From Akkermansia muciniphila (GTDB taxonomy: Bacteria > Verrucomicrobiota > Verrucomicrobiia > Verrucomicrobiales > DEV007): a DNA stretch of 50,535 bases. The notes under the pieces were generated by a model that saw nothing but the letters and a program-made list of their open reading frames with translations, was not told the origin of the DNA and searched no databases. The translations under genes and the position numbers were made by a program. The DNA lies in assembly GCA_945883495.1 (NCBI GenBank), contig CAMCXS010000043.1:1-50535 (forward strand), in the 5' to 3' direction. Of the stretch, positions 3,851-37,642 are shown in pieces; position 1 is the stretch's first letter, and each line of letters opens with the position of its first letter.

Positions 3851-3868
3851 TGGACGGCTGCTGACAGC

Positions 3869-4182
3869 GCATTTCCCCGCGCGTGCAGTGGCTAGAAGGT
3901 CGCTGACATCGCATAGATGCGAGCTGCCGTGGCTAGACGTGAGAAGACTTCGCATAGATGCGAGCTGACGGTGGCTAGACGCGAGCTGCCGTCAATTGGC
4001 GCGTGCTGACATCGCATCGGTGCGAGCTGACGGCCGTTCGATAGGAGAAGACTTCGCATAGATGCGAGCTGACAATGGCTAGAAGCGGGCTCACCGTGGC
4101 TAGAAGTCAGCTGACAATGGATTTCCTTGCCCTTGCAGTCGATATACTCCGTCTGACAGTTGATAAATCGCTCCCATGAGCG
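3869..4182 (+). repeat. Degenerate 21-base tandem array, about 15 units
   Basis: Unit-opening words recur about every 21 bases: GCATTT 3869, GCTAGA 3891, GCATAG 3911, GCTAGA 3932, GCATAG 3952, GCTAGA 3974, ATTGGC 3995, GCATCG 4014, GTTCGA 4036, GCATAG 4056, GCTAGA 4078, GCTAGA 4099, GATTTC 4120, GATATA 4141 and GATAAA 4162. Spacing is 19-22. Most units then carry a GCTGAC or AGAAGACTT core. A 29-base stretch is repeated exactly (3941-3969 and 4045-4073). Several units hold a small inverted repeat (CGCAT-AG-ATGCG). The array ends about 160 bases before the start codon at 4346. No function is known; it is not a CRISPR array because there are no constant repeats or longer unique spacers. Confidence 0.75.
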
Positions 4183-4345
4183 GCTGCGTTCCACATCTTA
4201 TTATGATTTTCAGAATGACCAGGCATCGACCGATGCCGCCCGGGTGAGCGAGGTGGTCGATTGTGTGGCCACTGGTTGCGGCAGGTGAGTTTTCACTCAT
4301 TCGCACTTGCAGAACATCAACTAGGTCATAATTTCGGCGAAAACG

Positions 4346-5281
4346 ATGAACACGCGTCAGCTCAACAAACTGAACATGTATCTCGGCGTGCGCCGGTATG
4401 TCGCGGATCCAAAGGTGGCCGAGGCTCGGGGCCAAATTGGGGGGTTCCAGGAAGCTTGGGACCAGTTTGTCCCGGTGGTGAACGAGATCCATCAGCAGGC
4501 GGTGGCATCGCGTGGTTTGGTCACGGGGGGAACCACGGAAACTAAGGAGACGATTCGGGAGAGTTTGGCGGTGGCGGCGGCTAAGATCAGTGCGGGCCTG
4601 GTGATTCTGGCTGAGGTCAATGGAGATGCGGTACTGGCGGAGAAAGCGCACGTGACCAAATCCGTGATGATGACAGGCCGGGAAATGGAAACGGCGGAAC
4701 GGGCCGATGCTCTTCTGTTGCTGGCCTCGGCGCACGTGGATCATCTAGGCAAGTATGCGGTGACGCAGGAGCGCTTGGACCGGTTTGAGCTGCTTTGCCA
4801 GGAGTTTTCCGATCTGACTGGGCGGCCGCGGGCGATTATTTTGCAACGGAAGACGGCGAACCGGTCCTTTACGGAGCTGTTCCAAGAAGCGGATTTGCAC
4901 TTAAGCCGGATGGATCGGCTTTGCCCTTCGCTGGAAGAGACGCATCCCAAGTTTGTGGCCGGGTATCGGGAAAATCGCAGCATCGTTCAGGTGAACGCGA
5001 CGCGTCCGCTCTCCGATGAGGAGCTGGCGAACGCGGTGCGGGACTTGGAAGAGAAGCAAGACGCTGAGGCGCGGAAAGCAGCGGCCAAGGCCAGCCAGGA
5101 CGCGGAACAAGCCCAGCGCGCCGCGGTGCGTGAGGAGATGGAGGAGAAGCTGCGGGTGGCGAAGCAAGGGTTGCCGGCTCCGGGCACAAGCGGGGCCAGC
5201 TCCGCCCCGAGCGACACGGCTCAAGCCAAAGGAGATCGAGCGACGACGGCACCGGCGGTGAATTTTGGGCTGCCGTCTTGA
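4346..5281 (+). CDS. Uncharacterised helical protein, family shared with 29524-30204
   Basis: A 311-residue, almost entirely helical, cytoplasmic-looking protein with no signal peptide or membrane span. Residues 1-220 form the conserved part. Landmarks are a charged helix starting at R71 (RESLAVAAAKISAGLVILAE), a KYAVT motif at 136-140, a helix ending near residue 158, and a closing P201-x-F-x-x-x-Y-x-x-x-R block (PKFVAGYRENR). The same landmarks at the same spacing occur in the protein at 29524. Residues 225-270 form a charged Ala/Glu/Lys helix and the last ~40 are low complexity, neither present in the shorter relative. I recall similar uncharacterised proteins in Bacteroidetes. The gene stands alone after the 21-base array. 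Confidence 0.75.
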   Translation: MNTRQLNKLNMYLGVRRYVADPKVAEARGQIGGFQEAWDQFVPVVNEIHQQAVASRGLVTGGTTETKETIRESLAVAAAKISAGLVILAEVNGDAVLAEKAHVTKSVMMTGREMETAERADALLLLASAHVDHLGKYAVTQERLDRFELLCQEFSDLTGRPRAIILQRKTANRSFTELFQEADLHLSRMDRLCPSLEETHPKFVAGYRENRSIVQVNATRPLSDEELANAVRDLEEKQDAEARKAAAKASQDAEQAQRAAVREEMEEKLRVAKQGLPAPGTSGASSAPSDTAQAKGDRATTAPAVNFGLPS

Positions 5282-29523: not shown

Positions 29524-30204
29524 ATGACTCGCCGCCATGCGCTCCTCCTCCGCAGCCTGCCCCTGCTTGCGGAATGTCTCCAGACGCACGAGAACGTCTA
29601 CCTCGCGGTGCCGGGGTTTGCGGAGCAGGTGACAGTCTTCCGCCGTTTGGCCATCAAGGCGCAACTTCAGGAGCAGTGCTCGCTCCGCATCGACACGGAA
29701 CTTCCCATCGATCTTCAGCTCGCCCGGGAAGCTCTCATCCAAGCATGCCGCGCCGTTTCGGGGCCGTTGGCCGGTTGGGCGGCCGTCATCGGCGATGAGC
29801 GCCTGCGCAACCAAGTGAACTCAACTCCAGACGAGCTCCGCGCGATCGGCCAGGGACTGATTGATCATGCCCGCGCCATTGCCGCCATCGGCCGCCGCAC
29901 GTTGCCACAGGGAGCGGGTCACTACGGCGTCACCAAAATCGCCCTGGAGCGGCTCGATCAGGAGACGGAGGCATTTTCAGCGGCGGTGGGCGGTTTCCCG
30001 GGCGCGTTGCCTTCCCTGCGCACCGCGTCGGATCAACTGCGGTTTTTCCTCCGGGACGTGATGGACCCGCTTGTCGATGGGTTCCTGCTCAGCGCCCCGG
30101 GGTTTTGCGCTGCCTACCGCCAAGCACGGAAAGGCAAGGAATCCACGGCCAACGACCGGGATTCCCTGCAAACGGCAACCCGCGACACGGTCCTGAGCGC
30201 CTGA
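29524..30204 (+). CDS. Uncharacterised helical protein, relative of 4346-5281
   Basis: A 226-residue helical protein without signal or span. R68 begins a helix (REALIQACRAVSGPLAGWAA), HYGVT sits at 133-137, and PGFCAAYRQAR (192-202) closes the domain. From R68 to the YGVT motif is 66 residues, the same spacing as R71 to YAVT in the 4346 protein, and the closing P-x-F-x-x-x-Y-x-x-x-R block is also shared. These suggest one divergent family. This copy lacks the long C-terminal helix and tail. It stands alone, divergent from the Verru_Chthon operon and convergent with ndk. Function unknown. Confidence 0.75.
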   Translation: MTRRHALLLRSLPLLAECLQTHENVYLAVPGFAEQVTVFRRLAIKAQLQEQCSLRIDTELPIDLQLAREALIQACRAVSGPLAGWAAVIGDERLRNQVNSTPDELRAIGQGLIDHARAIAAIGRRTLPQGAGHYGVTKIALERLDQETEAFSAAVGGFPGALPSLRTASDQLRFFLRDVMDPLVDGFLLSAPGFCAAYRQARKGKESTANDRDSLQTATRDTVLSA

Positions 30205-37258: not shown

Positions 37259-37642
37259 ATTACCAGAACTGTCTCACGCGGGAGGTCCGCTGCCACTGGC
37301 GAGACAACCGCTGTCCCCAACGGGACCACGCCTGTCCCAAACGCTAGAGCCGTCGTCCACAACGAGACAACCACCGCCCCCAAAGGGACCACGCTTGTCC
37401 CATACGCTAGAACCGCCGTCCGCAACGAGACAACGGCCGTCCCCAAAGGGACCACGCTTGTCCCAAACGCTAGAACCGCCGTCCCCAACGAGACAACGGC
37501 CGCCAGCAAAGCCAAAACCGCTGCACCCATCGATAAATCGCCAACACCACGCGATAAATCCCGACCACCGACGAAGAAATCGCGAACACCAGCCGCCAAA
37601 TCGCGAACACCCATAAACAAATCAAAAGACAAATGGCTAGGG
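37259..37642 (+). repeat. 21-base tandem array, about 18 units, with 63-base higher-order period
   Basis: Unit starts are exactly 21 bases apart from 37301 to 37616: GAGACA, GGGACC and GCTAGA repeated in order (37301, 37322, 37343; 37364, 37385, 37406; 37427, 37448, 37469), then GAGACA 37490, GCCAAA 37511, GATAAA 37532 and 37553, AAGAAA 37574, GCCAAA 37595, AACAAA 37616. Two weaker units precede (37259, 37280). The three-unit block makes a 63-base period in the left half; the right half drifts to Lys/Thr/Pro-coding words. The interiors vary. The words GCTAGA and GATAAATCG also open units in the array at 3869-4182. Confidence 0.8.

Follow-up and report, generated by a model that had tools for sequence, protein, structure and literature searches.

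A degenerate 21-bp repeat array, a candidate protein-binding platform, beside a gene of an undescribed multi-copy protein family in Verrucomicrobiota

The iteron arrays of plasmid origins consist of helically phased direct repeats of about 17–22 bp that lie beside the gene of the protein that binds them, and their words differ between replicons. Helically phased operator and activator arrays carry their sites at whole turns upstream of a gene and show conservation on one face of the helix. In type III toxin-antitoxin systems such as ToxIN, a tandem array adjoins a single gene, its unit is 34–47 nt long and the repeats are unrelated between families, and REP sequences, which are associated with RAYT transposases, are dispersed repeats of which some are located beside a dedicated gene. 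CRISPR arrays combine near-identical repeats of about 23–47 bp with unique spacers. The array described here shares traits with each of these systems and differs from all of them. It is located in a contig of an Akkermansia muciniphila assembly (CAMCXS010000043.1); the whole stretch of 50,535 nucleotides that was analysed is called the window, and the genome to which it belongs (6.46 Mb, 206 contigs) is called G000. The features concerned are listed below.

3862–4182, no strand assigned: 21-bp array of about 14–15 degenerate units, recognised by lag-21 identity, Tandem Repeats Finder and a sliding lag profile
3941–3969, no strand assigned: 29-bp block whose exact second copy at 4045–4073 makes a 104-bp higher-order duplication
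4045–4073, no strand assigned: second copy of the 29-bp block
4183–4345, + strand: 163-bp stretch from the array to the start codon, with the A+T-rich part ATCTTATTATGATTTTC
4346–5281, + strand: gene of 311 aa, encoding protein P0001 of an undescribed multi-copy family with relatives in its own genome
3802–5284, + strand: extent of the duplicated module, given by homology to the copy on contig C98 (-544 to +939 from the ATG)

An array of 21-base units had been proposed for positions 3869–4182 in the original prediction, and autocorrelation bears this out, since the lag-21 self-identity of this stretch is 0.498 and lies well above shuffled sequence (z 9.7 against 200 dinucleotide shuffles, about 14–15 units), with further peaks at lags 42, 62 and 104 (z 6.0, 3.9 and 3.2, respectively). 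Tandem Repeats Finder reported period 21 at 3902–4073 and period 104 at 3902–4091, and in the sliding lag profile the periodicity fades beyond about 3862–4177. The exact 29-base duplication described at 3941 and 4045 was confirmed, and one-base slips are found in the array (lags 41, 62 and 104). In gene orientation the unit words are like GCTGACrrTGGCTAGAAGCGA and GCTGACATCGCATAGATGCGA; among the words that had been noticed as recurrent, GCTAGA (five times) and GCATAG (three times) do recur, whereas GATAAA occurs once only (at 4162), and the perfect inverted repeat CGCATAGATGCG that had been ascribed to many units is present in three. No Rfam match at gathering score was obtained inside the array stretch. 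BLASTN of the array in G000 gave 12 matches, six of them at E < 0.001. The closest arrays in the genome, on contigs C98 and C167, precede a gene whose beginning resembles that of the gene at 4346 and which is not longer, so that these relatives do not hold coding sequence at the homologous position. Outside these two modules and the contig ends that hold the C167 stretch, one G000 match at E < 0.001 was found, at C57, and a family match is absent from its 3-kb locus. The same array stretch is found at three contig ends (C167, C100 and C33; L004–L006), so that assembly seems to break at arrays and the number of copies may be an underestimate. An exact 30-bp direct repeat in 2.1 copies is also located at 198–259 of the window, and a similar sequence (AACAGTCAAGCGGGATGATTGTTG) precedes the family copy L070 and borders an array away from the family (L135:11735).

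The gene at 4346 had been taken for an orphan, which does not hold: relatives exist in its own genome, and their family proved to be the key to the array. A protein search of G000 with P0001 returned 20 matches including itself, 18 of them at E < 1e-4, and a profile search gave 24 family matches, fragments among them. Counting its own genome, 5 of the 38 relatives contain the family at E up to 1e-5, and a scan of 387 genomes of the phylum, with no more than six candidates scored in each, detected it in four at E up to 1e-10; it was also present in 21 of 260 genomes of one taxonomic family, and its distribution is patchy. The alignment A5, made from three distant members, found 20 named loci, each of them in an assembly from Verrucomicrobiota, and a wider profile found additional copies in the genomes of these loci. 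Neither Pfam nor NCBIfam gave the family a match above a curated cut-off, and PHROGs and PADLOC gave none that was consistent; the hits were weak and came from one or two members, and none in PADLOC was convincing. Likewise, tblastn of P0001 at E 0.01 found nothing among 72,556 records of plasmids and 50,697 of phages, viral contigs gave no family match with A3 or A5, and no match was found in the genome contigs searched with A3. AlphaFold2 predicts all-helical models for P0001 (pLDDT 85, pTM 0.49) and for another family member (pLDDT 87, pTM 0.56). Neither model matched a PDB structure at E <= 0.001, the pLDDT-87 model matched no viral structure at E <= 0.001, and no DNA-binding fold was recognised in the structure searches of the family models. 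The best scores of a VIA structure comparison, Z 10.6 (3dby) and then 9.8 (2rld), are generic for helical bundles, and comparison with the four-helix-bundle S23 protein (2rld, Z 9.8, rmsd 3.0 over 97 residues) falls inside this generic helical-match range; a profile match to the designed helical repeat protein 5cwn (E 1.4e-4, 36 positions) was put down to composition. P161, R162 and I165 are invariant among 12 G000 members. The median pI is 5.6 over 55 copies, with a pI of at least 9 in 8 of 17 G000 members, and the mostly acidic character of the proteins speaks against simple non-specific DNA binding. The window also holds a divergent family member without an array (29524–30204, + strand), whose downstream neighbour resembles the neighbours of copies in genomes G001 and G002.

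The flanks of 62 tabulated copies were scanned for arrays over 700 bp, with a scanning window of 84 bp, an identity of at least 0.55 and lags of 14–34. Thirty-six copies have a periodic stretch upstream, at a lag of exactly 21 in 35 of them and of 18 in the other. Downstream within 700 bp eight copies pass, four of them at lag 21 (L125, L126, L130 and L131), and the upstream side of these four has no array or is cut off. A lag-21 array thus adjoins 39 of the 62 copies: eight of the 18 in G000 and 31 of the 44 in other genomes. In genome G418 all seven copies found by search carry one, and among 14 copies that were found later and served as a held-out set, 8 have an array, with 21 as the best lag in all eight. 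The 23 copies without an array by this criterion are partly fragments or contig-end copies, and in L071 (0.51) and L066 (0.44) the best lag is 21 at an identity below the threshold. L254 and L323 have less than 200 bp of upstream sequence. An array is absent despite full flanks from the MNDxIANx subfamily (L250, L320, L324) and from L315 and L316, whereas L248, which is similar to the latter two, does have one. The table omits short fragments (such as L076, L077, L079, L083, L091–L096, L099 and G428:C234) and L256, which is the same locus as L127, and it counts separately L130 and L131, near-identical loci of two assemblies. The 21-bp arrays of other relatives differ much in sequence, as CGCTAAGGGCTGTGACTCCGT at C107 and units containing TCGCACG and CATTTGCGCC at C93 illustrate. 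Between array and gene, a strict scan for a sigma-70-like promoter found none in the window; sigma-70-like sites were found at -45 to -17 in L072, L073 and L075 (z 2.3–3.8), and the site scan averaged z 1.2 in 12 G000 copies and z 0.3 in 28 other copies. By eye, a C+T-rich box (like CCTCTCCCC) recurs downstream of the array, in the last 60 bp before the ATG, in L114–L118, L121, L123, L244, L246 and L252.

Arrays also occur away from the family (free arrays). When arrays of lag 21, 41–43 or 62–64, genic or not, were counted in sampled stretches, their density per Mb was 25 in G000 (20 in 800 kb), 6.2 in G418 (2 in 322 kb), 2.5 in G298 (1 in 400 kb) and 0 in G002 (155 kb) and G005 (200 kb), and all these stretches together held only three family matches. 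Because the background outside G000 is this low, the coupling of arrays to the family there is far above chance. The view that such arrays are a property of the family alone was rejected, since G000 has many arrays without the family and G418 yielded two. The family HMM had no match among the proteins adjoining 18 free arrays of G000, and the free arrays of this genome are a second phenomenon, apart from the family-linked ones. Judged by a simple ORF reading, several arrays of the G000 sample lie at gene 3' ends. This sample (L134–L173) contains dispersed arrays of period 41–43 bp with recurring sequence families (L136/L161, L144/L151 and L139/L169), as well as a 21-bp free-array family (L141, L172). 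The window itself contains, at 37300–37632, another 21-bp array, whose sequence is different and in which a 63-bp higher-order unit is followed by GATAAATCG-type units; it is flanked by a glycosyltransferase gene and a PAS histidine kinase gene, and no family gene was seen beside it. At G000:C65:21333–21770 there is a 24-bp tandem repeat (CGATCTCCGCAACCGATTCGTCGG, about 18 units), which has a period that is a multiple of 3 and is possibly coding.

Conservation inside the units follows the pitch of the double helix. The units of 38 of the 39 arrays, grouped in 23 hand-made clusters (L110 fell below a slightly wider window criterion), were aligned to a cyclic 21-column profile, and the information content per column was resolved into Fourier components. 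Unit steps are exactly 21 bp in 366 of 425 cases and of other lengths in 59. The 10.5-bp harmonic accounts for a variance share of 0.222, where permuted columns give 0.100 (z 7.3, 0 of 5000 permutations), and ranks top in 19 of the 38 arrays, and no other harmonic is raised; in the held-out set (8 arrays in 7 clusters) it reaches 0.279 (z 5.3, 0 of 5000). Free arrays under a near-identical procedure gave a mean ratio of 1.1, with the 10.5-bp harmonic top in 2 of 22, but they are often very uniform, which lowers the power of this control. These 22 were picked by hand, two pieces of the second array of the window being among them, and L135:13487, L157:10545, L169:15942 and L151:136 were left out as they looked coding, weak or of shorter unit. 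In L247, as an example, the unit is made of the blocks CCGATT, TCTC and GTA, in this order, with a few variable bases between one block and the next. The A+T content of the columns rises and falls with their conservation (resultant 0.52, where about 0.21 is expected at random). The rhythm matches what is predicted from contacts of a putative binder on one face of B-DNA; of the traits that mark phased arrays, the family arrays display both the whole-turn spacing and the one-face conservation of the putative contacts. Among the three options that had been offered for the array, a protein-binding array is by this rhythm the best supported, and a protein would be expected to bind it.

Duplication copies array and gene together, and in one pair also the terminator of the gene. 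Loci L064 (the window copy) and L065 (the C98 copy) align by blastn at 79.9% over 1496 columns, and the alignment runs from 544 bp upstream of the ATG to just past the stop codon with no match beyond either end; the copies on C10 and C22 of G418 align at 90.5% over 1316 columns (-504 to +809 from the ATG), the flanking sequence compared gave no blastn match, and their common part comprises the array, the gene and a strong terminator-like hairpin. A strong hairpin follows the stop codon in a number of other members (by eye, 30 loci folded), a T-tailed hairpin is not obvious after the gene of the window copy, and neither a target-site duplication nor a terminal inverted repeat was seen by eye at module ends. 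Within flanks of up to about 2 kb, neighbour proteins match clearly in some array-bearing pairs, on both sides in L116/L117, L130/L131 and L322/L326 and on one side in L114/L115, L120/L262 and L128/L253, but not in such close pairs as L118/L123 and L244/L249. Array-less copies are syntenic between genomes in L251/L255, L250/L320 and L087/L088, and on one side for the copy at 29524 of the window.

Unit similarity tracks protein identity (Mantel r 0.59, 0 of 2000) and is mostly gone below about 60% protein identity, so that coevolution is not separated here from joint descent with fast turnover. Subfamilies keep words of their own: between L126 and L125, L130 and L131, unit similarity persists (z 3.1–5.9) where 4-fold sites are only 0.35–0.39 identical, and the word CGTTTT is common to L246, L322 and L326, relatives in different genomes. 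In L122/L261 the gene aligns (77.8%) and the alignment ends 52 bp before the ATG, a pattern that shows fast turnover; in L072/L073 (95% protein identity) the arrays are similar at z 1.5 only, the farther of the two L072 arrays having been compared. Paralogs within one genome mostly have different unit words. The family copy at L133/L113 (G298:C32) is apparently frame-broken despite a highly regular array with a lag-21 identity of 0.98.

The statement that the array is unlike CRISPR stands, since a constant repeat and a spacer are absent; the likeness is confined to regular spacing and to the alternation of fixed and variable parts, and here the variable parts span a few bases of 21-bp units that are alike in most columns. 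The family arrays also differ from REP sequences in being tandem, in lacking a transposase match and in the few free copies of the window's array type. Full-text literature searches, with subscription papers mostly out of reach, showed no such array–gene system among the matches listed, and passages of PMC4060949 show no such arrays.

Several other explanations were weighed. That the array codes, its 21 bases being seven codons of a heptapeptide-repeat protein, is extremely unlikely: six-frame stop counts over 27 arrays left no open frame in L069, L130 and L131 and open frames on the minus strand only in L064 and L132, conservation has no 3-base harmonic (z -0.4 at k=7), and steps other than 21 bp occur as noted, although the arrays of L114 and L117 are (nearly) fully open in a gene-strand frame. 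Since several arrays lack an open frame and a 3-base rhythm of conservation is absent, the array is considered non-coding. An RNA with phased hairpins had been another of the options, and it is not supported: tripled consensus units fold no better than shuffles on either strand (z about 0; 38 units, one undefined), and Rfam gave no match at gathering score in the stretch. This result also bears on a module like type III toxin-antitoxin systems, in which the array would be transcribed into repeat RNAs that curb the protein of the neighbouring gene. Its gross architecture, a repeat array followed by one gene, is the same, the repeat words are likewise unrelated between subfamilies, and terminator-like hairpins stand behind a number of genes. 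This explanation is nevertheless very improbable, as the units show no RNA structure, conservation follows the 10.5-bp pitch of a DNA duplex, four arrays lie downstream of the gene, the unit of 21 bp is shorter than 34–47 nt, and the protein has no toxin match: Pfam, NCBIfam and PADLOC recognised no ToxN-like endoribonuclease, the weak hits concern one or two members and point to different families, and none in PADLOC is convincing.

It is unlikely that the arrays are neutral minisatellites in which slippage favours two-turn steps and which persist by joint duplication of modules with junk. Arrays of period 21 or 41–43 are common in the G000 sample, some inside long open frames and several at gene 3' ends by the simple ORF reading, and the unit words change quickly between subfamilies. 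The growth by slippage that the original prediction also suggested is plausible for the copying of units seen in the internal 104-bp and 29-bp duplications; it accounts neither for an exact period of 21 beside one family nor for helical conservation. Against a neutral origin also speak the absence from free arrays of the 10.5-bp rhythm of the gene-linked ones, the survival of subfamily words where 4-fold sites are near saturation, and the presence of an array in related modules whose neighbourhoods are often different. We regard as rather improbable, too, a selfish or segregation-type element, whose iteron- or centromere-like array would be bound by the family protein for the upkeep or spread of the module. 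Family arrays are like iterons in being helically phased direct repeats next to one gene with differing words; words mostly differ even within one genome, as incompatibility would favour, whole modules duplicate within a genome, and the distribution is patchy, as the counts of 4 in 387 and 21 in 260 genomes given above show. Unlike iterons, the modules are multi-copy in genome assemblies, the protein is mostly acidic and predicted to be all-helical, and some arrays lie downstream. Moreover, no replication, partition or recombination family was recognised in the protein (a replication initiator had no Pfam, NCBIfam or PHROGs match, though distant initiators could escape such searches), P0001 has no plasmid or phage match, and target-site duplications or terminal repeats were not seen by eye.

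The reading that we favour, and hold to be somewhat more probable than its negation, is that of a self-contained module on the chromosome, of which the array is the cis half and serves as a cooperative one-face protein-binding platform that controls the gene. The module would consist of a 21-bp, two-turn array of about 6–18 units and a gene for a predicted all-helical protein of about 225–340 residues, and in a number of members it may also include the gene's own terminator. The array would be a row of sites that face the same side of the helix, each unit offering two contact patches one turn apart, and a cooperative binder could build on it a regular nucleoprotein row through which the transcription of the module's gene would be controlled. 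The reader of the array would most simply be the module's own product or a coevolving partner, because subfamilies keep their own words and paralogs of the same genome mostly differ; different words between paralogs would prevent cross-talk. Such a platform resembles phased operators in its whole-turn upstream repeats and one-face conservation, and differs from them in having up to about 18 units, an exact 21-bp period, duplication with the gene, binding that is putative, and unit sequences that change completely between paralogs. The four arrays downstream of the gene have no simple-operator explanation.

A broader view, which we put forward tentatively and think doubtful as yet, is that these loci represent a new class of duplicating, mutually orthogonal DNA–protein modules in Verrucomicrobiota, in which helical proteins would form one-sided cooperative rows on their own two-turn arrays and the words would diversify with the protein like lock and key; such modules may be selfish or may act as local switches that structure the nucleoid. 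If the favoured reading is true, it would reveal a new way to pair a gene with a DNA platform, in which the two-turn geometry is kept and the sequence is free to change, and it would provide the first clue to a multi-copy family without known relatives. The modules would then form a natural set of orthogonal array–protein pairs and a test case for the coevolution of DNA-binding specificity and its sites, and a chromosomal minisatellite period that is usually ascribed to slippage would become functionally testable.
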